From Pseudophaeobacter arcticus DSM 23566 (GTDB taxonomy: Bacteria; Pseudomonadota; Alphaproteobacteria; Rhodobacterales; Rhodobacteraceae), in assembly GCF_000473205.1 (NCBI RefSeq), contig NZ_KI421507.1, positions 3,891,057-3,955,056 of the forward strand: a DNA stretch of 64,000 nucleotides. The letters run 5' to 3'. Numbering within the stretch: the stretch's first letter is position 1; the number at the start of each line of letters is the position of its first letter. Below are positions 17,410 to 33,857 of this stretch, one piece after another. The position numbers and the translations under genes are program-made. The notes beneath the pieces were generated by a model. That model ran no database searches, was not told where the DNA came from, and saw nothing but the letters and a program-made list of their open reading frames with translations.

Positions 17410-17505
17410 CACATCTTTATTTTTGTTCACATCCCGCGCATGTCCGGGTCATGACATGCACCTCCCTGTTGGACTGGGCCGGGCTTCGTGCCCGGCCATT
17501 TTTTT
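17410..17505 (+). ncRNA. Candidate small RNA with exposed anti-Shine-Dalgarno ACCUCCC
   Basis: Between the response-regulator terminator and xthA lies a non-coding stretch with ordered RNA-like architecture. First comes a perfect 7-bp stem GCATGTC/GACATGC (17438-17459). An unpaired ACCTCCCTGTTGGACTG segment (17460-17476) follows. Then comes a perfect 8-bp GC stem GGCCGGGC/GCCCGGCC with a TTCGT loop, followed by A and seven T (17477-17505). The last is a textbook intrinsic terminator with no gene of its own. ACCTCCC is complementary to Shine-Dalgarno sequences, as in several alphaproteobacterial small RNAs. A TTGACA at 17382 may belong to a promoter, but no good -10 is obvious; a 3'-UTR origin is possible. 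The 5' end is a guess. Confidence 0.45.
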
Positions 17506-17636: not shown

Positions 17637-18425
17637 ATGGCTTTTTCCCTTGCGACCTGGAACATCAACTCTGTCCGTCTGCGCGAAGGGCTGGTGCAGA
17701 AACTCTTGCGCGAGGAAGGACCGGATGTGCTGTGTCTGCAGGAGTGCAAAAGCCCGGTGGACAAGATCCCGACACAGGCTTTTGCCGATCTGGGCTACCC
17801 CTATATGGTGGCGCGCGGGCAGAAGGGATATAACGGCGTTGCGATTTTGTCGCGTTTGCCCATTGAGGAGGCCGGGGCAGAGGATTTTGCCAATCTCGGC
17901 CATGCGCGCCATATTGCGGGGCGGCTGGAAAATGGCGTGACGGTGCATAATTTCTACGTGCCTGCGGGCGGGGACAAGCCCGACCGGGAGGTGAACGAGA
18001 AATTTGGCCAGAAGCTGGATTACCTCAGCGAGATGCGGGACTGGTTCAAGTCTGAGCGACCCGAAAAATCCATTCTGGTTGGCGACCTCAATATCGCACC
18101 GCGCGAAGATGATGTCTGGGACCACAAGAAAATGCTGAAAATTGTCAGCCATACACCGGTGGAGGTGGATCTGCTGGCGGAGGTGCAGGAGGCAGGACAT
18201 TGGGCGGATGTCACCCGGGCGGATATCCCCGAGGGGCTGCTGTATAGCTGGTGGAGCTACCGAGCCAAGGATTGGGATGCGGCTGACAAGGGGCGGCGCC
18301 TGGATCACGTCTGGGCCACCGAAGATATTCGCCAGGCGGCGCATTCCAGCCGGGTTCTGCGCGCCGCGCGGGGCTGGGAAAAACCCAGTGATCACGCGCC
18401 AGTTTTTGCGACATTTGATCTGTAG
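17637..18425 (+). CDS. xthA: Exodeoxyribonuclease III
   Basis: The protein has 262 residues from the ATG at 17637 (GGAG upstream), giving the canonical N-terminus MAFSLATWNINSVRLREGL. The open frame extends 62 codons further upstream, but that part crosses the small-RNA-like terminator and has no homology-like content. Catalytic motifs of the exonuclease-endonuclease-phosphatase fold are seen: LQECK, VGDLNIAP, RLDHVW and SDHAPVFATF. It repairs abasic sites and trims 3' ends in the cytoplasm. A three-hairpin repeat follows the stop. Confidence 0.95.
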   Translation: MAFSLATWNINSVRLREGLVQKLLREEGPDVLCLQECKSPVDKIPTQAFADLGYPYMVARGQKGYNGVAILSRLPIEEAGAEDFANLGHARHIAGRLENGVTVHNFYVPAGGDKPDREVNEKFGQKLDYLSEMRDWFKSERPEKSILVGDLNIAPREDDVWDHKKMLKIVSHTPVEVDLLAEVQEAGHWADVTRADIPEGLLYSWWSYRAKDWDAADKGRRLDHVWATEDIRQAAHSSRVLRAARGWEKPSDHAPVFATFDL

Positions 18426-18432
18426 CGCTTTT

Positions 18433-18525
18433 GACGGGCGGGGGGCTCCCGCCCGTCGTTTGGGCATCATAGATGCCCGCCTCCCGTTGGGCCGGGCGCC
18501 GCGCAGAGGAGCGGCGCGGTTGCGC
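18433..18525 (+). repeat. Three-hairpin intergenic element, copy A
   Basis: Three consecutive stems: GACGGGCGGG/CCCGCCCGTC (18433-18457), GGGCATC/GATGCCC (18462-18478), and GCGCCGC/GCGGCGC (18496-18517). The core CGTTGGGCCGGGCGC precedes the third stem. It lies 7 bp after the xthA stop. The same order and core recur at three other places in the window (copies B, C and D). Confidence 0.75.
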
Positions 18526-18663
18526 TGTGTTGATGCCTGAGACAAAGCCTGGCAGGCTGGTGCGAAATGAGAGCAGGAGCAAGACCGGGTGAACTCCACT
18601 CTTGGTTTCTGTGTTCCAGGGCTCCATATAGGGGGCAAGCTTCAAACGGAGAAGATCTGGACA

Positions 18664-19596
18664 ATGGATATTATTGGCGGAGCGGGCACAGCAGCCCCCG
18701 CAGGTGATTTGATCAAGGAGGTCGGTGAGGCGACCTTTATGCAGGATGTGATTGAGGCCTCGATGCAGGCGCCGGTGATCGTTGATTTCTGGGCGCCCTG
18801 GTGTGGCCCCTGCAAGACGCTTGGCCCTGCTTTGGAAGCGGTTGTGACCAAGGCCAAAGGCGCGGTGACCATGGCCAAGGTCAATGTCGACGAAAACCAG
18901 CGCCTGGCACAGGCTCTGTCGCAGCAGGGGTTGCCGTTGCAATCTATTCCAACTGTTGTTGCCTTTGTGGAGGGGCGCCCTGTTGATATGTTTCAGGGCA
19001 ATGTGCCTCCGAGCGAGATTGAGGCCTTTGTGAACAAGGCCATTGAAGCGGGCGGTGGCAGTGCGGATGGCGGCCTGGCGGAAGCGCTGGACGTCGCCGA
19101 GCAGATGCTGGCGGATGGCGAGGTTGCGGATGCGGCGCAGACCTTTGCGGCGATCCTTGGTGAGGATGACAAAAGCGCTGCGGCCTATTCCGGTCTGGCA
19201 CGGGCGCATATTGCGCTGGAAGATCTGGACCAGGCCGAAGCGGTTTTGAATGGCGCACCGGCGGAGATTTCCGATGCCGTTGAGATCGAGGCGGCGCGGG
19301 CGCAGATCGAACTGGCGCGGCAGGCGGAGAACGCCGGTCCCGTCACCGAACTGGCGGCCAAAGTTGAGGCCAACCCCGAGGATCTGGAGGCGCGCTTTGA
19401 ATTGGCACAGGCGCTGTATGCCACCGGAGATGCGGAGGCTGCGGTGAGCGAACTGCTGGAGCTGTTCCGTCGCGACCGCGACTGGAACGACGGCGCTGCC
19501 AAGGCGCAGCTTTTCACCATCTTTGATGCGCTGCAGCCAAATGATCCGGTGGTTTTGAACGGTCGCCGCAAGCTGAGCTCATTGATATTTGCCTAA
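18664..19596 (+). CDS. Thioredoxin-domain/TPR protein (CnoX/YbbN-like)
   Basis: The protein has 310 residues from the ATG at 18664; 25 upstream in-frame codons lack thioredoxin character. Residues ~25-125 form a thioredoxin domain with the active site WAPWCGPCK (Cys47, Cys50) and the cis-proline segment SIPTVVAF. The rest is helical, Ala/Glu-rich TPR-like repeats (AAYSGLARAHIALEDLDQAEAVL, LEARFELAQALYATGDAEAAVSELL). Relatives are cytoplasmic co-chaperones that protect clients from over-oxidation and hand them to GroEL. It heads a plus-strand run with the LON-like and Trm112 genes. Confidence 0.9.
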   Translation: MDIIGGAGTAAPAGDLIKEVGEATFMQDVIEASMQAPVIVDFWAPWCGPCKTLGPALEAVVTKAKGAVTMAKVNVDENQRLAQALSQQGLPLQSIPTVVAFVEGRPVDMFQGNVPPSEIEAFVNKAIEAGGGSADGGLAEALDVAEQMLADGEVADAAQTFAAILGEDDKSAAAYSGLARAHIALEDLDQAEAVLNGAPAEISDAVEIEAARAQIELARQAENAGPVTELAAKVEANPEDLEARFELAQALYATGDAEAAVSELLELFRRDRDWNDGAAKAQLFTIFDALQPNDPVVLNGRRKLSSLIFA

Positions 19597-19623
19597 TCGG
19601 GCCTCTGCCCTACAGTAATAGCC

Positions 19624-20268
19624 ATGATGCATATCGCAGATCTGCCGGACACTATTGCTGTCTTTCCACTGCCCCGGGCGATTTTATTGCCCCGGGCCCG
19701 CCTGCCGTTGCATATCTTTGAACCGCGCTATTTGCAGATGTTCGAAGATGCGCTCAAGACCCCGCAGCGCCTGATTGGCATGATTCAGCCCTGCGCCGGA
19801 TTTGGGGGGGCTGAGGCGCTGCAGGCCATAGGCTGCGCTGGGCGGGTGACACAGTTCTCTGAGACCGAGGATGGCCGCTATATGGTCACCCTGTCGGGCC
19901 TGTCCAGGTTCCGCATTCTGGGAGAGGTCACTGGCTTTAGCCCATACCGTCGCTGCGACGTCAGCTGGAGCGGGTTTGACCGCGATCTTGGTACTGCTGC
20001 CGAGACGGATGCCGAGTTTGACCGGGACGATTTTCTGGCCTTGCTGGAACGGTTCTTTGTGGCCCAAGGGCTGTCAACCGATTGGGACTCGTTGAAAGAG
20101 GCAGAAGATGAGCTGCTGATCAACTCCCTGTCGATGTTGTTGGAGTTTGAGCCGGAAGACAAACAGGCCTTGCTCGAGGCGCCCTGTCTTGCCACAAGGC
20201 GCAGAACGCTGGTGACATTGATCGAGTTTTCCCTGAGGGGCGGCGCAGATGAGGATATCTTGCAATGA
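19624..20268 (+). CDS. LON peptidase substrate-binding domain protein
   Basis: A 214-residue protein corresponding to the N-terminal substrate-binding domain of Lon without ATPase or protease. The family signature is [34 protein letters not shown], followed by RLIGMIQP and [29 protein letters not shown]. The stand-alone domain is common in alphaproteobacteria; its function is unknown. It starts 27 bp after the thioredoxin/TPR gene and overlaps the Trm112 gene by 4 bp. Confidence 0.9.
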
Positions 20269-20453
20269 GTGATACAAAACCGGTGACCTTTGATCGCCGC
20301 ATGTTGGAGGCCCTGGTTTGCCCACAAACCCAAGGCACTCTGGAGTATGATGCCGAGGCGCAGGAACTGCTGTCCAGAGCGGCGAATCTGGCCTTTCCAA
20401 TCCGCAATGGCATTCCAGTTATGCTGGTGGATGAAGCCCGCGCCATTGAATAG
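20265..20453 (+). CDS. Trm112 family protein
   Basis: A 62-residue protein with the Trm112/UPF0434 pattern: [48 protein letters not shown]. Only one of the usual zinc cysteines (Cys in LVCPQTQG) is present; the second position is Gln, as in many bacterial members. In eukaryotes and archaea Trm112 activates methyltransferases; the bacterial role is unsettled. It is the last gene of the thioredoxin-LON-Trm112 run. Confidence 0.9.
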
Positions 20454-20570
20454 GCGCGCAGCTCCTGTTCGCCTCCCCAGTTGCCCCTCCCTTCTGCCTG
20501 TTGTTCTCCGCTCGGCTACTCTGGTCGCCTCGCTGTGGGATGAGTGCCGTCGTTTGATAATTTGCCCCGG

Positions 20571-20610
20571 TTCAGGCGGCATCAGACTGTTTCAGGCGGC
20601 ATCAGGCTGC
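20571..20610 (+). repeat. 20-bp tandem duplication
   Basis: Two adjacent copies of TTCAGGCGGCATCAGRCTGY differ at two positions. They lie in non-coding DNA and look like a slippage or recent duplication product. Confidence 0.8.
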
Positions 20611-20644
20611 GGCAAAAACCTCCGTTGCATGGTTTGGTAAAAAA

Positions 20645-20731
20645 GGGGGGGCTCCCGCGCCCGCAGGTGCCCCTTTGGTGCCCCTTGGCGGCCTTGGGCC
20701 CGGCGCTGTGCTCACGCACAGCGGGCGCGCA
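20645..20731 (+). repeat. Three-hairpin intergenic element, copy B
   Basis: It opens with GGGGGGCTCCCGCGCCC, has a weak middle repeat GGTGCCCCTTTGGTGCCCC, then the core CCTTGGGCCCGGCGC and an 8-bp third stem CGCTGTGC/GCACAGCG with a TCAC loop. It faces copy D about 100 bp away. Confidence 0.65.
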
Positions 20732-20829
20732 GTTTGGACTGTTGCGGTCTTTCGCGATCTGTCGGTGGTGGTTCTGGCGGTAGTGGTTCTTGCGGTCAGG
20801 GCGGCTTTTAGCAGCATCTGTGCAACCCG

Positions 20830-20920
20830 CGGTGCAGCGCCTTGCCTTTAGGCAAGGCGCTGGGCCCAACCAGATCACAACACCAGAGGTGTTGATGGAA
20901 TGGGCGGGAGCGCTCCCCTT
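20830..20920 (-). repeat. Three-hairpin intergenic element, copy D (inverted)
   Basis: Read on the minus strand: GGGGAGCGCTCCCGCCC (20902-20918), a 7-bp stem CAACACC/GGTGTTG (20878-20894), the core GGTTGGGCCCAGCGC, and a perfect 11-bp third stem AGCGCCTTGCC/GGCAAGGCGCT (20836-20861). It begins 17 bp after the UbiH-type stop and is oriented with that gene. Confidence 0.75.
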
Positions 20921-20934
20921 GTCGGGGCGAGACG

Positions 20935-22161
20935 TCAGATGGCTTCGCCTTTGAGCAGCCGTGGCAAGTCGCCGGTCAGCCCGGCGGCCTCGCGCATGAA
21001 GCCGCGTCTGAGACCGGGCAGGCTGTTGACCAGCCCCATGCCAAGATCGCGGCCAAGCCGCAGCAGCGGGTTGTCATTGGAAAACAACTTGTTGACCATG
21101 TCCGTGCTGGCGACCAGCGTGGCCGTGTCAAAGCGGCGCCACTGTTGATAGCGGTCCAGCACCAGCGCGGATCCCGCATCTTCGCCACGCCGCCGGGCCT
21201 CGGTCAGCACCTCCGCCAAGGCACCAACATCGCGCAGCCCCGCATTCAACCCCTGCCCGGCAATGGGATGCATGCCATGGGCCGCATCGCCAATCAGCGC
21301 CATCCGCGCCGCAATAAAGCTATTGGCGATGGTCAGGTTTAGCGGATAGGTAAATCGTTTACCTGCCAGGGAAATTTCGCCGAGGAAATTGCCAAACCGC
21401 GGCTTTAGCGCGGTGATATAGTCGCTGTCATCCAGCCCCTGGATCGCCTCGGCCATTTTGGTCTTTTCGCTCCAGACAATCGAAGAGCGATTGCCCGGCA
21501 ACGGTAAGACCGCCAGCGGGCCAGGTTCCATAAAGAACTGATGGGCAATGCCGTGATGCGGCTTTTCGTGATCAATGGCGCAGACCAGCGCGGTCTGACC
21601 GTAGTCCCAGCCCGTGCGCTTGATACCGGCGCGTGCCGCTGTGCCGCTTTTGCGCCCGTCTGCCCCCACCAGGATACCGCCGCGCAGGGTGTCACCACTT
21701 TCCAAAGTCAGGGTGACGCCAGTCTGGTCGGTCTCCTGGGCCACCACACGGGCGTCATTGATCAGGGAAATGCGGGGCTCGTCTGCCATGGCCTTGAGCA
21801 GAGCGCGGCGCAGGTAGCGATCCTCCAGCATATAGCCCATCGGGCCTTCTTCGATCTCGCGGTGATCAAAATGCACAAAAAACGGCGCCGCTCCTTCGCC
21901 GGCATGGCCATCGCTGGCCTTGATTTCCAGCATTGGCTGCGCCTGCTCGGCCACCTCGGGCCAGATGCCGATCTGGGCCAGCAAACGCTGCGAGGCCAGG
22001 GCCAGGGCATAGCCGCGGCCGTCAAAATCCTCATCCTCAAACCCGCCCCGGGGCAGGGCGTCGACAACGGTGACACTATGGCCGGTTTGGGCCAGGGCCA
22101 AAGCCAGAGCGGGGCCATTCAAGCCACCACCAACGATCAAAATATCGGATGTGTTTTTCAT
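20935..22161 (-). CDS. UbiH/UbiF/COQ6-family FAD monooxygenase
   Basis: The protein has 408 residues from the ATG at 22161 (MKNTSDILIVGGGLNGPALALALAQ); an ATG 12 codons upstream is an alternative. The dinucleotide fold at the N-terminus, the VGADGRKSGTAARAGI motif and the second FAD motif ALIGDAAHGMHPIAGQGLNAGLRD near residue 285 identify the family. It hydroxylates the ubiquinone ring precursor at the inner membrane; the ring position cannot be assigned. The amidase gene is divergent. Confidence 0.93.
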   Translation of the reverse strand: MKNTSDILIVGGGLNGPALALALAQTGHSVTVVDALPRGGFEDEDFDGRGYALALASQRLLAQIGIWPEVAEQAQPMLEIKASDGHAGEGAAPFFVHFDHREIEEGPMGYMLEDRYLRRALLKAMADEPRISLINDARVVAQETDQTGVTLTLESGDTLRGGILVGADGRKSGTAARAGIKRTGWDYGQTALVCAIDHEKPHHGIAHQFFMEPGPLAVLPLPGNRSSIVWSEKTKMAEAIQGLDDSDYITALKPRFGNFLGEISLAGKRFTYPLNLTIANSFIAARMALIGDAAHGMHPIAGQGLNAGLRDVGALAEVLTEARRRGEDAGSALVLDRYQQWRRFDTATLVASTDMVNKLFSNDNPLLRLGRDLGMGLVNSLPGLRRGFMREAAGLTGDLPRLLKGEAI

Positions 22162-22315
22162 ACTTGGCAATATGCGCCGATTGGCGGAATTGTCCATGGC
22201 AGTGGATCAAAATCAAACAATTCCCACCCGCTGTGCCGCCTCGATTTTGCGCTTCGGGATTGTACCAGTTTGAGCAGAAGGCTACCGTCTTGAAAAATCA
22301 AACGGAGGGATGGCA

Positions 22316-23650
22316 ATGCAGGACTGGCTAAAGATGAGCGCCGCAGATCTGGGGCGGGGAATTGCGGCACAAGAGATTGATCCGGTTGCTTTGGCGCAGT
22401 GCTATCTGGACGCCATCGACAGTCATCCGCACCGCGATCGCATCTATAGCATGGTGACCCATGAGCGGGCCCTGGCCGAGGCCGAGGCCGCCGCCGAGCG
22501 CGCGCGGGCGGGTCTGCGACGCTCCGCCCTTGATGGGGTGCCGATCAGCTGGAAGGACCTGTTTGATTCTGCGGGTGCCAAGACCGAGGCAGGCTCGGAT
22601 CTGCTCAAAGGCAGGGTGCCGGACCAGGATGCGCTGGTGCTCGAGACCGCCACGTCCATGGGCGCCGTATGCCTTGGCAAAACCCATATGAGCGAGCTGG
22701 CCTTTTCCGGGCTGGGGCTCAATCCGGTGACAGCAACACCGCCCTGTGTGAACGACGAGACCGCAGTGCCGGGGGGCTCGTCTTCTGGCGCGGCGGCCTC
22801 GGTTGCCTTTGATCTGGCGGCGGCGGCCATTGGTTCTGATACCGGCGGATCGGTGCGCATTCCCTCGGCTTGGAACGATCTGGTTGGCCTGAAAACCACC
22901 GCCGGGCGGATCAGCCTCGAAGGGGTGGTGCCGCTGTGCCTCAAGTTTGACACTGTCGGCCCGCTGGTGCGCTCGGTTGAGGATGCCGGCCTGTTTCTGG
23001 GGCTGCTTGAGGGCACGGCTGGCCCGGATCTGCGCGGCGCGACGCGCCTTGAGGGGCGCCGCTTTGCGGATCTGCAAACTATCGCGCAGGATGATCTCGA
23101 CCCGGTTGTCGCCCAAAGCTATGGGGATGCGCTGCTAAAGCTGCAGCAGGCCGGCGCCGAGATTGTGCCGCTGGAGGTGCCCGAACTGGTTGAGGCCATG
23201 GGGTTGAGCGCCATTTTGTTCACCGCCGAGGCCTATGGGTTGTGGAAAGATGTGATCGAGGCCAACCCCGAGGTGATGTTTGACAAGATCCTAGAGCGCT
23301 TCCGCTCTGGCGCAGGGTTTTCCGGGCCTGACTACGTTGCCGCCTGGGGGCGGCTGGAGCAGGCCCGTATGGCCTGGGATCAGGCAACGGCTGGCTTTGA
23401 TGGTATCCTGTCCCCCAGCTGTCCGATCCTGCCGCCCAATCTGGCGCGACTGGAGCAGGAAGAGGACTACTATGTGCAGGCCAATCTGCTGACTCTGCGC
23501 AATACCCGCATTGGCAATCTGATGGGCACCTGCGGGTTGAGCCTGCCCACCGGCACCCCCAGTTGCGGCTTGCAGGTCCTTGGCCAACCCAATTGCGAGG
23601 AAGCTCTGCTGCGGGTTGGCATGGGGGTTGAGGCGGCCCTGGCAGATTAA
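22316..23650 (+). CDS. Amidase (amidase-signature family)
   Basis: The protein has 444 residues from the ATG at 22316. The upstream ATG at 22310 abuts the GGAGGG ribosome site (22304-22309) with no spacer, so the second ATG, 6 nt away, is preferred. The Ser-cisSer-Lys triad is visible: Lys80 in ISWKDLFD, cis-Ser in PGGSSSGAA near 155 and nucleophile Ser179 in GSDTGGSVRIPS. The enzyme hydrolyses an amide in the cytoplasm. GatA is unlikely because gatB and gatC are not adjacent. The substrate is unknown. Confidence 0.92.
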   Translation: MQDWLKMSAADLGRGIAAQEIDPVALAQCYLDAIDSHPHRDRIYSMVTHERALAEAEAAAERARAGLRRSALDGVPISWKDLFDSAGAKTEAGSDLLKGRVPDQDALVLETATSMGAVCLGKTHMSELAFSGLGLNPVTATPPCVNDETAVPGGSSSGAAASVAFDLAAAAIGSDTGGSVRIPSAWNDLVGLKTTAGRISLEGVVPLCLKFDTVGPLVRSVEDAGLFLGLLEGTAGPDLRGATRLEGRRFADLQTIAQDDLDPVVAQSYGDALLKLQQAGAEIVPLEVPELVEAMGLSAILFTAEAYGLWKDVIEANPEVMFDKILERFRSGAGFSGPDYVAAWGRLEQARMAWDQATAGFDGILSPSCPILPPNLARLEQEEDYYVQANLLTLRNTRIGNLMGTCGLSLPTGTPSCGLQVLGQPNCEEALLRVGMGVEAALAD

Positions 23651-23792
23651 CGCCGGGCCTGCCAAATGCCAAAATCTGGCTGGAATGCCACAAATTTGGC
23701 CAAGGCCGCATCCTGCGGCTGGACGCATTGGCTCTTGCTCTGTAATTTAGCTCCAAACGGGGCGCGAATGATCCCGAAGTTGAGGCACAGCT

Positions 23793-24977
23793 ATGAATTT
23801 CCCTGAGCGGTTTGCGAACCTGCCAGCCTATGCGTTTCCGCGTCTGCGGGCGCTTTTGGACCATCACGCGCCTGGCGGCGATGTGGTGCATATGACCATT
23901 GGCGAGCCAAAACACCAATTCCCCCAGTGGGTGACGGATGTCATCGTTGAAAACGCGGCTGGCTTTAACAGCTATCCGCCCAACGATGGTTCTGATGATC
24001 TGCGCGGCGCGATGGCAGGCTGGATTTCCAACCGCTACGGCGTCGCTATGGATCCTGCGACGCAGGTCATGGCGCTGAATGGGACCCGCGAGGGGCTGTA
24101 TAATGCCGCGATGGCGCTGTGTCCTGAGCAGAAGAATGGTGAAACACCGGCGATTCTGATCCCGAACCCGTTTTATCAGGTCTATATGGTGGCCAGCCTG
24201 TCGGTTGCGGCTGAGCCTGTGTTTCTGCCCGCCAGTGCCGCAACGGGTCATTTGCCAGATTATGAAAGCCTGCCGGCTGAACTGCTGCAGCGCACCGCGA
24301 TTGCCTATATTTGCTCCCCTGCCAACCCCCAGGGCGCGGTGGCGGATCGAGCCTATTGGCAGCGCCTGATCACCCTGGCTGAAAAACATGATTTTTATAT
24401 CTTCGCTGATGAATGTTACAGCGAGATCTACCGCGACGCGCCGCCGCTTGGGGCCCTTTCCGTGGCACAGGAGATGGGCGCGAACCCGGAGCGGGTGGTG
24501 CTGTTCAATTCGCTTTCCAAACGCTCAAACCTGCCGGGGCTGCGCTCTGGTCTGATTGCCAGCGGGCCGGAGAATATCAAACGGGTCAAGCAGCTGCGGG
24601 CCTATTCCGGAGCGCCGCTTCCGGGGCCGTTGCAGGCGGCTGCGGCAAAGGTCTGGGCGGATGAGACCCATGTGGTGGAAAACCGGGCGCTTTACGTTGA
24701 GAAATACAATATCGCAGATGAGGTCTTTGCCGGGCTGGACGGATACGTCTCTCCCAATGCCGGCTTTTTCCTGTGGCTGCCCGTTGCCGATGGCGAAGCC
24801 GCAGCGTCGAAGCTGTGGCAGCAGACCGGCGTGCGGGTGTTGCCGGGGGCCTATCTGGCCCAGGGCAGTGGTGATGAGAACCCCGGTAAGGGCTATATCC
24901 GGGTGGCACTGGTGGCCGCGCCCGAGGTGACACGGGAGGCGCTGACCAAGCTGCGGCGCTGTCTATACGACAATTGA
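23793..24977 (+). CDS. dapC: Class I/II aminotransferase, probable DapC (succinyldiaminopimelate transaminase)
   Basis: A 394-residue fold-type I PLP enzyme. Visible elements are VVHMTIGEPKHQFPQWV at the N-terminus, AYICSPANPQGAV, FADECYSEIYRD and the PLP lysine in LFNSLSKRSNLPGLRSGLIA (near residue 242), ending with GKGYIRVALVA. The segment pattern fits DapC of proteobacteria, which makes N-succinyl-diaminopimelate for lysine and peptidoglycan. It is 113 bp upstream of ftsK. General aminotransferase activity cannot be excluded. Confidence 0.8.
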   Translation: MNFPERFANLPAYAFPRLRALLDHHAPGGDVVHMTIGEPKHQFPQWVTDVIVENAAGFNSYPPNDGSDDLRGAMAGWISNRYGVAMDPATQVMALNGTREGLYNAAMALCPEQKNGETPAILIPNPFYQVYMVASLSVAAEPVFLPASAATGHLPDYESLPAELLQRTAIAYICSPANPQGAVADRAYWQRLITLAEKHDFYIFADECYSEIYRDAPPLGALSVAQEMGANPERVVLFNSLSKRSNLPGLRSGLIASGPENIKRVKQLRAYSGAPLPGPLQAAAAKVWADETHVVENRALYVEKYNIADEVFAGLDGYVSPNAGFFLWLPVADGEAAASKLWQQTGVRVLPGAYLAQGSGDENPGKGYIRVALVAAPEVTREALTKLRRCLYDN

Positions 24978-25090
24978 CTGACTGCGATGGCCTCCTGGTT
25001 TAGGGGGGCCTCGCCAATACGAAAGACAGACCGATGATCCAATCCTGTGGTACAATCAGGGCACATCGGCAACAATGAACCGAGGTAGGC

Positions 25091-28000
25091 ATGGCATTTC
25101 AAACCCGCAGCAGGGACCCCCTGCTAGACAGTTCGATGCAGGCGGCGATCGAAAAGCGTGGCAAGGAGCTGATTGGGATCTTTCTGATCACGCTTGGTCT
25201 GCTTGTGGCTGCGATGGTTGGGTCCTACACGCCGGATGACCCCAATTGGATGGTCTCTACCGATGCGCCGGTGCAGAATTGGCTGGGGCGCCCTGGGGCC
25301 TCGATTGCGGCACCGTTGTTCCTGATTGTGGGCTGGGCGGCCTGGAGCCTGGCACTGACGCCGCTGGCCTGGGGGCTGCGCTTTTTGCTCCATAGTGGCG
25401 AGGACCGGGTGCTTGGCCGGATGATCTTTGCGCCGGTTCTGTTGGCGGTGGCCTCGATCTATGCCGCGACGCTGGTGCCCGAGGCCGATTGGAAAACCAC
25501 CCATAGCTTTGGGCTGGGCGGCCTGTTTGGCGATACCGTGATGGGGGCCTTGCTGACGCTTCTACCGGTCAGTTCGCATTTTGCGGTGAAGCTGATGTCG
25601 CTGCTGATGGCCATTGGCATGTTGTCCCTTGGGGCCTTTGTTGCCGGGTTCAGCCGCAGCGAGATCAATCGCGCCGGTCGTTATCTGACCCTGGGCTTTG
25701 TGTTGATCTATGGTGGCATTGCCAGCCTGCTGGGGCGCGGCGCCACCAGCGGTTTTCAGGCCGCGATGGCCCTGCGCGACCAACGTCGTGCCGCCAAATT
25801 GCAGGCCGAAGAGGAGGCCTGGATCGCCGAGGACAGTGGCGCGCAGATGTTTGAGAGCTATCCGCAAGGCAGTGATGTTGATGCGGGGGTGCTTGAAGAT
25901 GATTATGTGGTGGAAAAGCCCGAAAAGGCGGGCCTGTTTTCCCGTGTGCCGGGCCTGATGCGCCGCTCTACTCCGGAAGATATCTCCGATCAGATGCCCG
26001 AGCCCGAGTTGGTTGAAAATGCCCAATCCGGTGAATCGCTTCTGTCGGGTGACGCGCGTATTTCGGAAAAGATCGCCAGCGCTGTGCGCATCCGCCGCGC
26101 GGCTGGCCAGGCTGTTCCCCATGACCCGGATCTGCCTCTGACCAAGGGACGTGGCAAACGGGCTGAGCCTTTGCTGTTCAACCCCAATGCCGCCGCCGCT
26201 GATCTGCCCCCCGAGCCGCCGCTGACCGCGACGCACTCCATTCCTGCAGCGCCGGGCGCCGCAGCACCTGTGGCGGCATTTGTGCCCTCTGCCCCAGATA
26301 TGCCAGCGATGCAGGGCTATGAGGCAACAGCTGTTGAGACCGGATCTGTGTACGCAGAGCCCGCACCGGAGCAATACGCAGCTGAGACCGCGCCGATGGA
26401 GCCGGTGGGCCTGCCCTCTGAGCTGGCGCCGGACCGGGTTGCTTCAGAAGATCTGCCTGCTGGCCGGGTCATCAACCGGGAATTTGGCACAGCGCCAAAA
26501 TCCGGTGATGCCCAGAAGACGCCAGTGCCGGCTGACTTTGATCTGCCTGTTGCCACCCCGCGCAAGGCGGTGGTCGAGCAGCCGCAGCGCAAGCCTGTAC
26601 AGCCCTCAGCACGGGCCAAGGCCGAGGCGCAGCCGGATCTGGCCTTTGAAGAAAACGCCTTTGAGTTTGAACTGCCGCCGCTGTCGTTGCTCAGCCATCC
26701 CAGCGGGGTCGAGCGCCACCATCTGAGCGACGAAGCCCTGGAAGAAAACGCCCGGATGCTGGAAGTGGTTCTGGATGACTATGGCGTCAAAGGTGAGATC
26801 GTCTCGGTGCGCCCCGGTCCTGTTGTCACCATGTATGAGCTGGAACCGGCGCCGGGTCTTAAGGCCAGCCGCGTGATTGGTCTGTCGGATGATATTGCCC
26901 GGTCGATGTCGGCGCTGTCGGCGCGGGTGTCTACCGTGCCTGGGCGCACGGTCATCGGCATCGAACTGCCCAATGAAAAGCGCGAGATGGTGAATTTCCG
27001 CGAAATCCTGTCGAGCCGGGATTATGGCGATGGAACGCAGAACCTGCCGCTGGCGCTCGGCAAGGATATTGGTGGGTCATCCATGGTGGCCGATCTGGCC
27101 AAGATGCCTCACTTGCTGATCGCGGGGACCACGGGTTCTGGTAAATCGGTGGCAATCAACACCATGATCCTGTCGCTGCTGTATAAGCTGTCACCGGATG
27201 AATGCCGCCTGATCATGATTGATCCAAAGATGTTGGAACTGAGCGTCTATGACGGCATCCCGCATCTGCTTTCGCCGGTTGTGACCGATCCGAAAAAGGC
27301 GGTTGTTGCCCTGAAATGGGTGGTGGGCGAGATGGAAGATCGCTACCGCAAGATGTCCAAGATGGGTGTGCGCAACATTGCCGGCTACAATGGCCGCGTG
27401 AAGGAAGCGCTGGCCAAGGGCGAAATGTTCAGCCGCACCGTGCAGACCGGGTTTGACGATGACACCGGCGAGCCCGTGTTCGAGACGGATGAATTCGCCC
27501 CCGAGGCGCTGCCCTATATCGTGGTTATCGTTGACGAGATGGCTGATCTGATGATGGTGGCGGGCAAGGAAATCGAAGCCTGCATCCAGCGTCTGGCGCA
27601 GATGGCGCGGGCCTCTGGGATCCATTTGATCATGGCCACACAGCGTCCTTCGGTGGATGTGATCACCGGCACGATCAAGGCCAACTTCCCCACCCGGATT
27701 TCCTTCCAGGTGACCTCCAAAATCGACAGCCGCACGATTCTGGGTGAAATGGGGGCTGAACAGCTGCTTGGCATGGGCGATATGCTTTATATGGCGGGCG
27801 GCGCCAAAATTACCCGCTGCCATGGGCCCTTTGTGTCGGATGAAGAGGTCGAAGAGGTGGTGAACCACCTGAAACAGTTTGGTCCGCCTGAATATATGGG
27901 CGGCGTGGTGGAGGGCCCGGATGACGACAAGGCCGAAAACATCGACGCGGTTCTGGGGCTGAATACCGGCGGCAACACCACGGGCGAAGATGCGCTTTAT

Positions 28001-28177
28001 GATTCAGCGGTGCAGATCGTGATCAAAGACCGCAAGTGTTCGACCTCTTACATTCAGCGCAAGCTGGCCATCGGCTATAACAAGGCCGCCCGGCTGGTGG
28101 AGCAGATGGAGGACGAGGGGCTGGTCTCCCCGGCCAACCACGTGGGCAAACGGGAAATTCTGGTGCCGGAACAGTAA
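25091..28177 (+). CDS. ftsK: DNA translocase FtsK
   Basis: A 1028-residue septal DNA pump. Residues ~25-190 hold four to five membrane segments ([40 protein letters not shown] and others). Residues ~200-530 are a Pro/Ala/Glu-rich linker. The motor follows, with Walker [16 protein letters not shown] near 680 and Walker [15 protein letters not shown], then [18 protein letters not shown]. The C-terminal winged-helix gamma domain ([36 protein letters not shown]) recognises KOPS. It moves the dif regions to the septum for XerCD resolution. It is followed by lolA after a terminator. Confidence 0.97.
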
Positions 28178-28216
28178 GGCTGGGTGAAAACCGACGTGCT
28201 CTAAGCAAGAAATCGC

Positions 28217-28253
28217 GAGGTCGGCCCGTATATGGGGCGACCTCTTTTCTTTT
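28217..28253 (+). terminator. Intrinsic terminator between ftsK and lolA
   Basis: A stem GAGGTCGGCCC/GGGGCGACCTC (one mismatch, loop GTATAT) at 28217-28244 is followed by TTTTCTTTT. It ends about 25 bp before the lolA start, so it may attenuate rather than fully separate the two genes. Confidence 0.8.
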
Positions 28254-28278
28254 ACGCTTCAAGGCTTATCTAACTCTT

Positions 28279-28881
28279 ATGAAAAAACTTCTTTATGTCC
28301 TGGCGCTGGGCGTCACTGCTTCGATGTCCGGCACCCTGGCCTGGGCTGAGGGTAAGCTGAGCCTGGCTGAGATTTCCGGCTATCTAAACGAGATGAAGAC
28401 CGCAACGGCGAGCTTTACCCAGATCAATGATGATGGATCGCTGACCACGGGTAAGCTGTATCTGCACCGTCCGGGCCGGATGCGGTTTGAATATGACGGG
28501 ACGGATGGGGGTACTGTTGTGGCCGGGTCGGGGTCTGTGCGGATCCATGATCCCAAATCGAACCAACCTCCCGAAACCTTCCCGCTGAAGCGCACGCCGC
28601 TGTCGATCATCCTGGCCAAGCGGGTCGATCTGGATCAGGCCAATATGGTTGTCGGCCACGGCTTTGACGGCACCTCGACCGTGGTGCAGGCTCAGGATCC
28701 GGAAAACCCCGACTACGGCAGTCTGGAGCTGATGTTCACGGACGAACCGGTAGAGCTGCGTAAATGGGTGGTGCATGACGGGGCCGGGGGCAAGACCACG
28801 GTGATCCTTGGTGCGTTGGAAACGGGGATGCGTTTGCCCTCAACCCTGTTCAGCTCCGGTGGTGGTGGAAATTCACCCTAG
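28279..28881 (+). CDS. lolA: Outer-membrane lipoprotein carrier LolA
   Basis: A 200-residue periplasmic protein with a signal peptide (MKKLLYVLALGVTASMSGTLAWA). The LolA fold signature appears as FTQINDDGSLTTGKLYLHRPGRMRFEYDG, then SVRIHDPKSNQ and FPLKRTPLSIILAKRVDL. It carries lipoproteins from LolCDE to LolB across the periplasm. The ftsK-lolA order is common to proteobacteria and supports the call. Confidence 0.93.
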   Translation: MKKLLYVLALGVTASMSGTLAWAEGKLSLAEISGYLNEMKTATASFTQINDDGSLTTGKLYLHRPGRMRFEYDGTDGGTVVAGSGSVRIHDPKSNQPPETFPLKRTPLSIILAKRVDLDQANMVVGHGFDGTSTVVQAQDPENPDYGSLELMFTDEPVELRKWVVHDGAGGKTTVILGALETGMRLPSTLFSSGGGGNSP

Positions 28882-29034
28882 CAGCGACCCGTTGAAATCG
28901 CAGGACATTTCCGACATTTGCTCCGGCGAGGGCAATGAGTGTTTTCAAGTGTTCAGTGAGGAGCGGGCTTAATCTTGGCGGTTAGGTGACAGTGCGTCTT
29001 GCCAAGTTCATCAGGGAAAGATAGATGATCGATG

Positions 29035-29054
29035 TGTTATGATATATCATAATA
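29035..29054. promoter_or_regulatory. Zur-like operator in front of zinT
   Basis: A perfect 16-bp AT-rich palindrome, TTATGATATATCATAA (29037-29052), inside TGTTATGATATATCATAATA, lies 27-42 bp upstream of the zinT start. It resembles the TGTTATA-type palindromes bound by Zur. zinT is a classic Zur target, so zinc-repressed control is the natural reading. Zur binding itself is inferred. Confidence 0.65.
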
Positions 29055-29078
29055 TACAGCAAAGGCAGGAACCTTCCC

Positions 29079-29738
29079 ATGAAACAGACAATTCTCAAAC
29101 GCGTTGGCGTCATTGCACTTGGCGCGCTGATCGTAACGTCGACGCAGGCAATGGCCCAAACAGCGGCAAATTCCACCACGACAGACACCCATACACACTC
29201 CCATAAGGACGTGGGGCCATCCCTGGTCGACGCGGCTGCAGTGCAAGCCCGCAGCCTGTCAGACTGGGTGGGCGACTGGCAGTCACTTTACCCACTCCTG
29301 CAAGACGGCACTTTGGATGCTGTCATGGACCACAAAGCCGAAAATGGAGAAAAGACCGCTGAGGAGTACCGTGCCTACTACGAGCTCGGCTACAAAACAG
29401 ATGTGGAGCGTATCTTGATAGACGGTTCCAGCGTGACGTTCTTCCGGGACGGCCAGCCCGTACAGGGGCAGTACGCGGAAGATGGATATGAAATCCTGAC
29501 CTATGAATCCGGCAATCAAGGTGTGCGCTTCATTTTTGAAAAATCGGGCGGCGACGAAGCTGCGCCTCGGTTCATTCAGTTCAGCGACCACAAGATTGCG
29601 CCAACCAAGGCTGACCACTATCATCTTTACTGGGGTGATGATCGCGCTGAATTGCTGACAGAAGTTACCAATTGGCCGACATATTTCCCAGCCGCGTTGA
29701 GCGGAGCAGAGATCGCAGCCGAAATGATGGCCCACTAA
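29079..29738 (+). CDS. zinT: ZinT/AdcAII-family periplasmic zinc-binding protein
   Basis: A 219-residue exported protein. The signal peptide ends in TSTQAMAQ and is followed by a His-containing linker (TDTHTHSHKD). The ZinT/YodA core reads SDWVGDWQSLYPLLQDG, YRAYYELGYKTDVERI, FEKSGGDEAAPRFIQFSDHKIAPTKADHYHLYWGDD and LLTEVTNWPTYFPA; the HYH cluster is a known zinc-ligand region in the family. ZinT binds Zn2+ and hands it to ZnuA during starvation. The genes for ZnuABC are not nearby, so this is a stand-alone unit with its own operator and terminator. Confidence 0.95.
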   Translation: MKQTILKRVGVIALGALIVTSTQAMAQTAANSTTTDTHTHSHKDVGPSLVDAAAVQARSLSDWVGDWQSLYPLLQDGTLDAVMDHKAENGEKTAEEYRAYYELGYKTDVERILIDGSSVTFFRDGQPVQGQYAEDGYEILTYESGNQGVRFIFEKSGGDEAAPRFIQFSDHKIAPTKADHYHLYWGDDRAELLTEVTNWPTYFPAALSGAEIAAEMMAH

Positions 29739-29746
29739 AGTGGGCG

Positions 29747-29792
29747 CTAAGCCGCCATTCTCTGCAGTCCGGAGAACGGCGGCTTAGTGTTT
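29747..29792 (+). terminator. Terminator after zinT, possibly bidirectional
   Basis: A 16-bp stem with one mismatch (CTAAGCCGCCATTCTC/GAGAACGGCGGCTTAG, 9-nt loop) occupies 29747-29787, followed by TGTTT. It lies 8 bp after the zinT stop and just downstream of the convergent transglycosylase gene. Confidence 0.8.
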
Positions 29793-29799
29793 GAGAGGG

Positions 29800-30387
29800 T
29801 CAGCGGGCGCGGCGGCAGGTGGCAAGCTGGGCCTGGTACATCTGCGAGCGGGCCTCGACCTTGCTGGCGACCCGCAGCAGCCAGGTTTTTGACTTGTAGG
29901 TCCCGCGAGCAAAACCCGTGTGACCGTCGTGATAGGCCAGATACTGGTTGCGCGCGTCATAAAGCTGGATGCCGTTTTTCTCCAGACTGGTGTTCATATA
30001 CCAACCCATAAAATCGGCGGCATCCTCAATCCGGTCGCGCCTGGCCCGGTGCCGCCCGGTATCGCGTTTGTAATCAGCCCAGGTGGCGTCCAGGGCCTGG
30101 CCATAGCCATAGGCACTGGATTGCCGCCCCATGGGGATTACTCCCAGCAGGTATTTATGCGGGGTACGGGCATTGCCACGGAAGGCGCTCTCTTGATGGA
30201 TGGTGGCCATTTGCACATGGATGGGCACGCCCCAGCGGCGCTCGGTGGCGCGAAAGGCGTTCAGGTATTTGGGCCGCTCCTTGATGATAGCGCACGCGTT
30301 TTCCAGATTGCGGGGGGGCGTATTGGGACCACCTCCGCAGGATGCGACGACCAGAAGAAGGGCGAGTACGACGATGATTCTGCTCAT
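29800..30387 (-). CDS. Transglycosylase SLT-domain lipoprotein
   Basis: A 195-residue lipoprotein (lipobox LVVASC, Cys17) with a lysozyme-like SLT fold. The catalytic Glu is in MATIHQESAFRGNA (Glu66), followed by GYGQALDATWADYK and YLAYHDGHTGFARGTY. It should cleave peptidoglycan glycan strands from the outer or inner membrane face. It is monocistronic and convergent with zinT. Confidence 0.9.
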   Translation of the reverse strand: MSRIIVVLALLLVVASCGGGPNTPPRNLENACAIIKERPKYLNAFRATERRWGVPIHVQMATIHQESAFRGNARTPHKYLLGVIPMGRQSSAYGYGQALDATWADYKRDTGRHRARRDRIEDAADFMGWYMNTSLEKNGIQLYDARNQYLAYHDGHTGFARGTYKSKTWLLRVASKVEARSQMYQAQLATCRRAR

Positions 30388-30446
30388 TGCCTCTGCCTAT
30401 TGTTATGTTTTTTTGCCATTCTAGCGTGTTTGGGCATCCGTGAAAA

Positions 30447-31334
30447 TCACAAATCAATCAAAAGTGACAGCACCAGCGGCAGGGCAGCAATCGCCATCAG
30501 GGTCGAGACCACCACAAGCCCGGCAACTGCCTCTGCGTCGGCGCCGAATTTTTCGGCCAGCAGATAGGAGGTGACGGCAACGGGGGTGGCCAGTTGTAGC
30601 ACCAACACGCCAAAGGCGATCTCGTCGAGGCCAAAGGCCCATCCCAATCCCCAGCCAATGGCCACGCTGGCGCAAAGCTTGGCCAAAGACAGCAAAACCG
30701 CCAGCCCGGTTTTCCCCGGCGTCAACCGGGCGATGGCCACGCCCAGTGTTATCAGCATGATGGGAATGGCCATCTGGCCAATGAGGTCCAGCGCATTGGT
30801 CAAAAACCGAGGGGTCTGCCAATCCTGCCACAGAAAGAGCGCGCCCAGCAATGTGGCCCAGACCATCGGCTCGCGCAGGGCCTTGCCGCCGCCACCCTTG
30901 CCCGCCACCAAGGACAGGCCGAGGGTAAAGGACAATACCGCCGATACGGCCAACATGGCCACCGCATAGCCGAGGCCAGCCTCGCCAAAAGCAAACAGCG
31001 CCAGGGGGATGCCGAGATTGCCGGTATTGCCAAAAATGAAAGGTGCCAAATAGGTTTGCCGGTTCAGGCCCCCTGTTTTGATCAACACTGCTCCAACCAG
31101 AGCCAGCAGCAAATGGCCTAAAATGGCAGCGACGACAAAGAGCCCGAGCGCAGACTTGTCGAGCTCGGTTTTCATCAGCGCGGTGAAGATCAGTGCCGGC
31201 ACTGCAAGGGTCATGGCCAGCCGGGTGACAAACTGAATGCGGTATTCAAACCCGAGCTTGACCCAGGCAAAACCGACCCCGGCAAGCAGGAAAACGGGGG
31301 CGGTAATTTCAAGCACTGTTACGGCCAGGTTCAC
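30447..31334 (-). CDS. AEC-family transporter
   Basis: A 295-residue inner-membrane protein with about ten hydrophobic segments (APVFLLAGVGFAWVKLGF, LAMTLAVPALIFTALM, LALVGAVLIKTG and others) and the family pattern FGNTGNLGIPLALFAFGEAGLGYAV. Auxin-efflux-carrier (AEC) proteins export organic acids or related anions. The substrate is unknown. It is divergent from hspQ. Confidence 0.9.
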   Translation of the reverse strand: MNLAVTVLEITAPVFLLAGVGFAWVKLGFEYRIQFVTRLAMTLAVPALIFTALMKTELDKSALGLFVVAAILGHLLLALVGAVLIKTGGLNRQTYLAPFIFGNTGNLGIPLALFAFGEAGLGYAVAMLAVSAVLSFTLGLSLVAGKGGGGKALREPMVWATLLGALFLWQDWQTPRFLTNALDLIGQMAIPIMLITLGVAIARLTPGKTGLAVLLSLAKLCASVAIGWGLGWAFGLDEIAFGVLVLQLATPVAVTSYLLAEKFGADAEAVAGLVVVSTLMAIAALPLVLSLLIDL

Positions 31335-31419
31335 AGACTGTTTCCTCGAAAATTTGCTTCAACAGTTGGACATCTGCCAGCGTTTTACGTTAGTAACAAG
31401 TCACGGAGACAGTCTGCCA

Positions 31420-31746
31420 ATGCTAAGAACACGCGCAAAATACAATTTGGGACAGGTCGTCCGTCACCGAAAACACCCGTTTCGCGGTGTGGTCTTTGAT
31501 GTCGATCCAGAGTTCGAGAACACGGAAGAGTGGTATGAATCCATTCCCGAGGAAAGTCGGCCGGTGAAGAACCAGCCGTTCTATCATCTGCTGGCAGAGA
31601 ATGATCAGACCTACTATGTGGCCTATGTCTCGGAGCAGAATCTGGTTGCGGATTATTCCGGTGAACCAATCAGCCACCCTGATTTGCCAGAGATGTTTGA
31701 CCGGTTTGATGGGGCGGCCTACGCCTTGCAGTATCAGCTCAACTGA
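31420..31746 (+). CDS. hspQ: Heat-shock protein HspQ
   Basis: The protein has 108 residues from the ATG at 31420, preceded by GGAG; 61 upstream in-frame codons overlap the divergent AEC promoter and lack similarity. The core AKYNLGQVVRHRKHPFRGVVFDVDPEF, PFYHLLAENDQTYYVAYVSEQNL matches the HspQ/YccV family, which in enterobacteria binds hemimethylated DNA and enhances Lon degradation. It is monocistronic, with repeat copy C after the stop. Confidence 0.93.
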   Translation: MLRTRAKYNLGQVVRHRKHPFRGVVFDVDPEFENTEEWYESIPEESRPVKNQPFYHLLAENDQTYYVAYVSEQNLVADYSGEPISHPDLPEMFDRFDGAAYALQYQLN

Positions 31747-31802
31747 GCCCCCCCCGTATTTTATCACGCGCAGTTGAAACTTTGACTGGCAGTCCCCTCT
31801 GC

Positions 31803-31900
31803 CAGGGTGGGGCTCCCGCCCCTTGTTGCAGATCTGGCTGCGCCAGCCTGACAAGCGTTGGGCCTGGCGCCGGACCAAAAAAGGTCCGGCGCGGGTGCGT
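31803..31900 (+). repeat. Three-hairpin intergenic element, copy C
   Basis: Stem 1 is GGGGCTCCCGCCCC (31809-31822), stem 2 CTGGC/GCCAG (31834-31846), the core CGTTGGGCCTGGCGC precedes stem 3, and stem 3 is a perfect 10-bp GCGCCGGACC/GGTCCGGCGC with an A6 loop (31867-31892). It lies between convergent hspQ and ggt. Confidence 0.75.
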
Positions 31901-31934
31901 TCCCTCGATAGTCTTCTGATTGGCAGCCAGAGGC

Positions 31935-33512: not shown

Positions 33513-33857
33513 TGACCACTCCTGTTGGGTTGCCCGGCAAGGTAGTGATCCTGATTGAAATGACAATGAAATTTTCTGCCGCGCTTGTGGGGCCTGGTCC
33601 AAGGGGGCAAAACCGCTGCGGATGATACGCAGCGCCACAGGTTCGACGATTTGAGGAGGTCCGCGGGCAGAGTGTCCCTGGCGTCGCACAATCGGTGGGG
33701 GCTTAGATGTCCGACGCCAGGAGAAGCTATGACAGCTACGCGTTAATCAATACATGAGACCTGAGGCGAGACTGCGCCGGAAATGCGGCGCTTTTACGGC
33801 GTTGATTGCACCGTGAATCACTCGACTTGGCCAAGGCCCCCTTGTGGGCCTCATCAG

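Follow-up and report, generated by a model that had tools for sequence, protein, structure and literature searches.

What kind of element recurs between the genes of this part of the Pseudophaeobacter arcticus genome, and does it act as an RNA, as a mobile sequence or as a structure in the DNA itself? Within the window, the whole 64-kb stretch of DNA that was analysed, the core TTGGGCCNRGCGC occurs with no mismatch at exactly 4 places, all of them intergenic positions at which the initial annotation had placed copies of a three-hairpin element. The four copies and their parts are as follows, with scores from cmsearch and neighbouring genes named by Pfam.

18436..18532, +: copy A (73.0 bits), in the tandem gap between an XthA-type exonuclease/endonuclease-phosphatase gene (17637-18425, +), whose stop lies 10 nt away, and a thioredoxin/TPR gene
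18446..18452, +: copy A, invariant CTCCCGC
18453..18486, +: copy A, stem 2 hairpin region
18487..18491, +: copy A, invariant TTGGG
18496..18517, +: copy A, stem 3
20642..20739, +: copy B (72.5 bits), downstream of a Trm112-like gene (20265-20453, +), left half of a convergent pair
20652..20658, +: copy B, invariant CTCCCGC
20694..20698, +: copy B, invariant TTGGG
20704..20723, +: copy B, stem 3
20822..20920, -: copy C (67.9 bits), downstream of a FAD-binding monooxygenase gene (20935-22197, -), which we take to be UbiH-like (our own label); right half of the pair with copy B
20904..20910, -: copy C, invariant CTCCCGC (GCGGGAG on the + strand)
20865..20869, -: copy C, invariant TTGGG
20835..20862, -: copy C, stem 3 of 12 bp
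31803..31907, +: copy D (65.2 bits), downstream of a YccV-like gene (31237-31746, +), convergent with a gamma-glutamyltranspeptidase gene (31935-33689, -)
31813..31819, +: copy D, invariant CTCCCGC
31858..31862, +: copy D, invariant TTGGG
31867..31892, +: copy D, stem 3 of 10 bp

When one mismatch in TTGGGCCNRGCGC is allowed, the window holds 7 matches against 2.92 expected and 6 of 100 shuffles reach 7, an unremarkable count for the window alone. That the repeat is real was decided by the genome-wide count, in which 55 exact matches stand against 2 for a reversed-pattern control. CTCCCGC lies 25–75 nt upstream of the core in 49 of the 55 matches, and stem 3 is present in 49/49 of those; the other 6, without the upstream anchor, were dropped before alignment. 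A covariance model search of the genome, the check that had been proposed, with tens of copies to count as support, returned 88 copies at E<=0.002, with compensatory changes among them, and one further degenerate copy at E=0.06. The original observation is correct and its extent was understated, the family being far from confined to the four copies first seen.

The unit, about 95 nt long, reads CTCCCGC, a covarying stem 2, TTGGGC and a covarying stem 3, with two invariant flanking motifs, CTCCCGC ahead of stem 2 and TTGGG ahead of stem 3. The stem sequences vary widely while pairing is preserved. Among 49 copies of this genome, stems 2 and 3 show 185 cells changed on both sides, compared with 70.7±7.3 after shuffling, and an alignment of 29 matches (the window and 14 named loci), itself fitted to the model, gives 107 against 37.4±5.1. 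The first pair of stem 2 is C-G or G-C in 43/49 copies. The first palindrome, counted as hairpin 1 in the initial annotation, shows no covariation (3 both-side changes vs 3.8 shuffled). The covariation first noted for stem 3 is borne out and extends to stem 2, and the three-hairpin model gives way to one of two hairpins. A plain binding site for a protein on double-stranded DNA, as sole explanation, was rejected because it leaves the compensatory changes unexplained.

Gene context was taken from the gene calls of a codon-usage script, not from annotation, and covers 85 copies; the remaining three of the 88 are partner units that joined the set afterwards. None of the 85 lies inside a called gene under a 60%-overlap rule; 63 lie in convergent gaps, 10 in tandem gaps on the same strand, 9 in tandem gaps on the opposite strand and 3 in divergent gaps. 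In a sample of the genome outside the terminus zone described below, with the window included, elements occupy 9/61 convergent gaps and 2/355 others; the count was repeated on 400 kb without the window, since the window had been chosen for its copies, and gave 7/55 versus 1/307 (p=9e-6). Each of the four window copies does come after the 3′ end of a gene and is oriented like that gene, as had been stated for them. Genome-wide, that rule is mainly a by-product of convergent placement. The singles in tandem gaps do not follow gene orientation, running along it in 6 cases and against it in 4. Among 59 named loci in which xthA is visible, 12 have copy A immediately behind it, some of these in other genera.

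Close pairs of copies point tail to tail in 21/21 cases, and four of the 21 overlap around a single common stem 3. In another genus, 12/12 pairs are likewise convergent (among the 94 of 96 copies listed). The members of a pair are mostly of unlike types, like those of REP heterodimers: CCGT/CCGT pairs number 0, and GCCC-type units are paired in 7/7 cases.

The placement would suit a structured RNA read on the strand given above for each copy: each unit would belong to the 3′ UTR of the gene before it and would terminate or protect that gene's transcript, with the help of Rho or through processing. The 34 convergent singles lie close past stop codons (median 47.5 nt, with 54 nt to the stop of the other gene). 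In pairs, both transcripts would meet the same 5′ to 3′ order and could share stem 3. The orientation of copy A after xthA is kept across genera. Nevertheless, no U-tract follows stem 3 (on average 1.6 T in 8 positions), the tandem singles do not follow gene direction, and the fine structure of the hairpins points elsewhere. On the strand as read, G.U pairs number 9 against 25 A.C pairs, the reverse of the other strand. The loops of stem 3 on the complementary strand are GNNA in 30/47 and GNA in 12/36, compared with 0 and 1 on the strand as read, where UNNC would be the loop, which to our knowledge is no stable RNA loop. The processed 3′-UTR structure offered by the initial annotation is weakened by the wobble count, by the 42 stem-3 loops to 1 and by the tandem singles, and we regard it as unlikely.

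Stem 2 repeats the pattern, with GNNA in 13/24 and GNA in 8/56 on the complementary strand and 0 and 2 on the other, as do the loci of relatives, with 12/26 against 0. Because the copies counted for loops and wobbles are related, these numbers are not fully independent; a wobble test restricted to orthologues (17 vs 7) is borderline. Stable GNNA and GNA loops, together with wobble tolerance opposite the strand as read, indicate that the hairpin belongs to the complementary strand. An RNA of that strand would then be an alternative; it would lie in the 3′ UTR of the opposing convergent gene and end in GCGGGAG, a C-run and a U-tract much as a weak terminator does. It would account for the loops and the wobbles, and ahead of the G-run positions -8 to -12 are indeed A-rich (U on that strand). 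Its U-tract, however, is weak, with a mean of 3.4 of 8 and at least 5 in only 22/88 copies; a stable terminal hairpin is found in only 31/88 copies; and the copies at L115 and L117 have no G-run. Moreover, the GNNA loops of this genome are mostly GNYA, with a pyrimidine at the third position in 37/43 by hand count, unlike the GNRA loops of RNA; the relatives' loci have only 4 GNNA loops, 2 of which are GNRA. We consider this second RNA distinctly unlikely, and the loop sequences suggest that the complementary-strand hairpin is probably one of DNA.

Two further RNA readings were rejected. An intrinsic terminator fails on either strand, as no T-tract fits the hairpins, the other side of the element carrying a weak A-tract. 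An Rfam family fails too, since nothing scored above the gathering score at the four window copies or 16 other loci of this genome, and permissive scans at copies A–C gave sub-threshold matches only.

Among DNA repeats, the RIME/ABC elements of rhizobia are mosaic GC-rich palindromes in alphaproteobacterial intergenic DNA, a likeness by description alone. A closer parallel is the BIME/REPIN organisation, which two papers describe as short extragenic palindromes in tens to hundreds of copies, with inverted pairs and a hairpin with an unpaired flank (PMC2817692, PMC6006769). REPs are there reported to affect termination and mRNA stability and to bind gyrase. The present family shares the organisation, with 21/21 pairs inverted, mostly unlike types and 0/85 copies in genes. 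It differs from the elements of those accounts in having two hairpins per unit and about 95 nt instead of 21–65 nt, in its single pair geometry with units that may have a hairpin in common, and in lacking a GT[AG]G guide and a genomic RAYT. GTAG or GTGG was not found 0–2 nt 5′ of the hairpins, the flanks being CTCCCGC and TTGGG. A RAYT-borne REP was rejected, as this genome holds no RAYT/Y1 transposase and 31/36 element-bearing genomes have no Y1_Tnp. CGTC REPs, as described in PMC3733652, are also alphaproteobacterial, have no dedicated transposase, commonly form dimers of unlike units and lie between convergent or co-directional genes. Unlike them, our copies show no CGTC head and no 8–9 bp stem starting with A/T, and the CCA tail is inconsistent; CCGT follows CTCCCGC in 25/87 copies, inside the paired foot of stem 2. 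No named roseobacter repeat was found in a literature search of listings, one for terminator mapping in roseobacters led no further, and the available text of PMC12306157 and PMC7901474 holds no match. The statement that no named family matches survives the Rfam scans and these literature listings. Dispersal in tens of copies and compensatory changes are supported as well, and REP-like is the best of the labels first proposed.

Is the repeat still moving? In a related species (G007), 45 loci were sampled, 40 fetched by place and 5 by score among the better-scoring matches listed of its 79 copies. By both flanks, 44 of them match a copy of our genome, and the last corresponds to a copy that has decayed, so that 45/45 sampled loci have a counterpart. 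Identity to G007 is 92.4% in elements, 89.8% in coding and 82.7% in other intergenic DNA, and elements exceed their own surroundings in 43/44 loci, in a test that takes loci with a detectable copy in both species and thereby favours conserved copies. A currently mobile MITE or REP driven by a Y1 (IS200-like/RAYT) transposase might be supposed from the matches in at least 74 of 394 family genomes, a lower bound with 10 candidates scored per genome, and from copies of other genera lying mostly at different places: among 18 loci of G016, G018 and G026, both flanking genes are common in 1 and one in 3. IS200-like genes also lie between or beside copies in G026 (L318, L319), where we read these Y1-like genes as probable insertions of truncated IS200 copies at the element. 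Against such a driver, no Y1_Tnp was found in our genome or in the 31 of 36 tested genomes just mentioned. An empty site in a close relative, as would be needed to look for a target-site duplication, was not found. Active mobility was rejected on the 45/45 loci common to the two species and appears highly improbable; the MITE-like label lapses with it, there being no insertion polymorphism among those loci. The best reading of these comparisons is that the repeat no longer moves and is old and fixed.

On balance, we favour, at about an even chance, a new REP/BIME-like family of interspersed palindromic DNA, old and fixed, that convergent genes would retain between them as a structural boundary. 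The repeat would have spread long ago, with no Y1 transposase now found in this genome. Its hairpins may form on one strand of single-stranded DNA, or in a cruciform, and could act as a boundary at the common 3′ side of convergent genes, for which the repeat would be retained. Such a boundary, which is inferred, might hinder read-through between the genes and protect their 3′ ends, a role already suggested for BIMEs. Discussions of REP-like repeats usually treat them as selfish or mobile sequences of unclear use. This family is better conserved than its surroundings, almost completely stable in position between two species, strict in the geometry of its pairs and marked by loops specific to one strand. 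With these traits, marine roseobacters allow a direct test of the old question of whether REP-like repeats benefit convergent genes.

The distribution along the chromosome raises another possibility. A zone of 835 kb centred at 1.640 Mb holds no copy, the terminus being at 1.629 Mb if parS marks the origin; a gap of such size arose in 0/20000 random placements, and sampled convergent gaps carry elements in 0/46 near the terminus versus 7/55 elsewhere (window excluded, p=0.015). Singles run with replication in 35/45 cases in our genome, 34/40 in G007 and 29/37 in G003, counts that have sites in common and are not independent (among 60 of 79 copies listed in G007 and 43 of 55 in G003). A site of chromosome organisation, for a topoisomerase or nucleoid protein for instance, excluded from the replication terminus would explain these features. 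Yet G235, with its chromosome taken as 4.6 Mb (true length 4.595 Mb), shows no bias (36/70 singles with replication) and has 9/94 copies in the terminus fifth, both among 94 of 96 copies listed. The G007 zone contains two weaker copies within the sampled 400 kb, and the remaining five contigs of our genome, 0.83 Mb summed, hold 1 copy. The zone may also simply be variable DNA, as 51/308 of its proteins (0.17) were refound in the G007 zone against about 0.42 expected if wholly conserved, both zones being sampled. We judge this explanation quite improbable. Replication alignment as a family-wide property was rejected on G235; the copy-free terminus and the aligned singles are a mark of this genus, the alignment being absent in another. 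FtsK-orienting sites, considered for the alignment, were dropped because copies avoid the terminus and show no concentration there. The structural-boundary reading can be extended to these features in a more specific form that we hold to be unlikely: a fixed, selected single-stranded DNA hairpin or cruciform would serve as a bidirectional insulator of convergent genes, REP-like without a transposase, and in Pseudophaeobacter it would be absent from the terminus and aligned with replication because the strand with the stabler hairpin must not be the lagging-strand template.

The repeat shares its niche with bidirectional intrinsic terminators, from which it differs in having no T-tract that fits the hairpins. 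Against the boundary reading, canonical terminators are only modestly rarer at convergent gene ends that bear an element (12/98) than at those that do not (47/196, p=0.02). Read by eye, an A-tract/hairpin/T-tract arrangement is present at the B/C site in 2/14 loci (L119, L145).

The exact core TTGGGCCNRGCGC is found at four sites in the window and nowhere else in it, and these are the four copies listed by the initial annotation. When one mismatch is allowed, the window alone holds 7 matches versus 2.92 expected; 6 of 100 shuffles score as high, so this excess is not striking. Across the genome (5.05 Mb, six contigs, the window being C6:3891057-3955056) the exact core has 55 matches versus two for a reversed-pattern control. 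CTCCCGC lies 25-75 nt upstream of the core in 49 of the 55, all 49 with a hairpin after the core; the six matches without this anchor were excluded from the alignment set. A covariance model built from the 49 copies found 85 copies in this genome. A further model, based on an alignment of 138 rows, found 88 at E<=0.002 plus one degenerate copy at E=0.06, so the element is not confined to the four. The contig C6 holds 87 copies, and the other five contigs (~0.83 Mb), which are probably plasmids, hold one in total.

On the strand read from CTCCCGC to stem 3 (the reader's strand), the unit consists of an (A-rich)-G-run, CTCCCGC, stem 2, TTGGG, four bases and stem 3, whose arms are usually GCGCCGCGC/GCGCGGCGC. 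CTCCCGC and TTGGG are invariant among the 49 copies. Changes on both sides of stems 2 and 3 occupy 185 cells versus 70.7+-7.3 after shuffling in the 49 copies, where the structure was taken from the same alignment. The two alignments fitted to the covariance model give 107 versus 37.4+-5.1 (29 matches from the window and 14 named loci) and 659 versus 208.7+-15.2 (138 rows). The compensatory change first noticed in stem 3 therefore holds, together with stem 2, in all three alignments. In 40 of 49 copies the second pair of stem 2 does not form; in the wider set it is C.C in 99 of 135. A unit of three hairpins had been proposed; stems 2 and 3 covary, whereas the first palindrome showed no covariation when tested, and the G-run is missing from the copies at two loci (L115 and L117). 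The supported unit is therefore two hairpins. Many copies of this genome have, next after stem 3, a weakly conserved GG[CT]TGCGC, and the unit may therefore reach about 8 nt further. Upstream of the 478-kb copy (L007:1365-1450), additional degenerate GGGGGGGCTCCCGC stretches form a tandem array, which looks like a duplication of the element's 5′ part.

Under a 60%-overlap rule, all 85 copies examined are outside called genes. They fall in convergent gaps (63), tandem gaps with the genes (10) or against them (9), and divergent gaps (3). Across 400 kb sampled outside both the terminus zone and the window, 7/55 convergent gaps hold a copy versus 1/307 others (p=9e-6); with the window included the counts are 9/61 and 2/355. 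All 21 neighbor pairs within 400 bp are tail to tail, and the partners are mostly unlike in type. Overlap occurs in six pairs, and in four of these it exceeds 50 nt and centers on a single stem 3 that both units share. Among the matches listed for G235, a genome of another genus, 12/12 pairs are tail to tail. It had been suggested that all copies follow gene 3′ ends and point with the upstream gene. This holds for the four copies, but among the genome's single copies in tandem gaps 6 share the gene direction and 4 oppose it, so the orientation is largely an effect of convergent placement.

A processed 3′-UTR RNA on the reader's strand, also suggested initially, is disfavored by this tandem split and by loop and mismatch biases that favor the complementary strand. 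Stem-3 loops on the complementary strand are GNNA in 30/47 tetraloops and GNA in 12/36 triloops, versus 0 and 1 on the reader's strand; for stem 2 the counts are 13/24 and 8/56 versus 0 and 2. In the loci of relatives, 12/26 loops are of these types on the complementary strand versus 0 on the reader's. Mismatches on the reader's strand are A.C in 25 cases versus G.U in 9 (17 versus 7 among orthologue mismatch events, borderline), which amounts to G.T/G.U on the complement, in line with the loops. The motif d(cGNNAg) was reportedly selected for stable DNA tetraloops by Nakano et al. in 2002. GNA triloops are stable in DNA, and RNA would prefer GNRA loops. Position three of the GNNA loops is a pyrimidine in 37/43 of this genome's own, counted by hand, and in 2/4 in relatives' loci. 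From the loop bias, the mismatch bias and this pyrimidine we infer that the selected structure is a complementary-strand hairpin, more likely of DNA than of RNA.

A proper intrinsic terminator was sought on both strands of the copies in this genome and found on neither. T content after stem 3 is 1.6 of 8, and the A-tract side is weak. Canonical terminators are scarcer at element-bearing convergent gene ends (12/98 versus 47/196, p=0.02). In two of 14 relatives inspected by eye (L119 and L145), the site between the Trm112-like and ubiH-like genes is without the convergent copies B and C; there the ubiH-like stop is immediately followed by an intrinsic terminator of canonical bidirectional form. 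By analogy with REPs and BIMEs, the likeliest role of the element is a putative structural boundary, which would separate convergent genes. Termination, mRNA stabilization and gyrase binding are reported for REPs/BIMEs in PMC6006769.

Scanning the window's four copies and 16 other loci of this genome against Rfam matched no family. The tag and transposase tests that define GTAG and CGTC REPs were negative, which agrees with the original view that no named family fits. The proposed likeness to REPs stands in part: like GTAG/CGTC REPs, the element shows inverted, unlike pairs in intergenic convergent sites, but their tags are absent, as is the transposase in this genome. REP heterodimers likewise join unlike units, as PMC3733652 describes. 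In another genome, G026, truncated IS200-like Y1 transposase genes lie between two elements (L318) and beside one weak match (L319); these look like IS insertion at the repeat. REPs are reported as IS targets in PMC1525189.

The parS site at 3.736 Mb places the terminus at ~1.629 Mb, provided the origin adjoins parS, and the longest stretch without copies (835 kb) is centered at 1.640 Mb. Single copies are co-oriented with replication in 35/45 cases. Among the matches listed for G007 and G003 the same trend is seen, at sites shared with this genome; the G007 terminus zone is not wholly without copies. Among those listed for G235 the singles show no such bias (36/70), and a mild deficit lies by the terminus (9/94, p=0.009). 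The pattern is real within this genus and is not a defining feature of the element.

In G007, of the same genus, 45 loci were sampled from the better-scoring matches among those listed; 44 correspond to a copy here by both flanks, and the 45th corresponds to a decayed copy here, at C6:3799043. Identity over the 44 is 92.4% for elements, 89.8% for coding DNA and 82.7% for other intergenic DNA, in a comparison biased to conserved copies as it takes loci with a detectable copy in both species. Element identity exceeds that of its own surroundings in 43/44. In other genera the sites are mostly different: 1 of 18 loci (G016, G018, G026) has both flanking genes in common with a copy here, and 3 have one in common. 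A family survey gave at least one match in 74/394 genomes, a lower bound. Within 80 named loci of the ubiH-like gene region, 14 have an element match of any kind; xthA is present in 59, and copy A directly follows it in 12 of these, extending to Tritonibacter and Parasedimentitalea. Just 5′ of the xthA-type gene preceding copy A lies a SorX small RNA (Rfam RF02784, 96.9 bits; window 17431-17503, plus strand). One record, JAHVJD010000003.1 (L141), titled Nocardioides marinus and probably mislabeled, contains a Rhodobacteraceae-like ubiH/xthA locus with the element after xthA.
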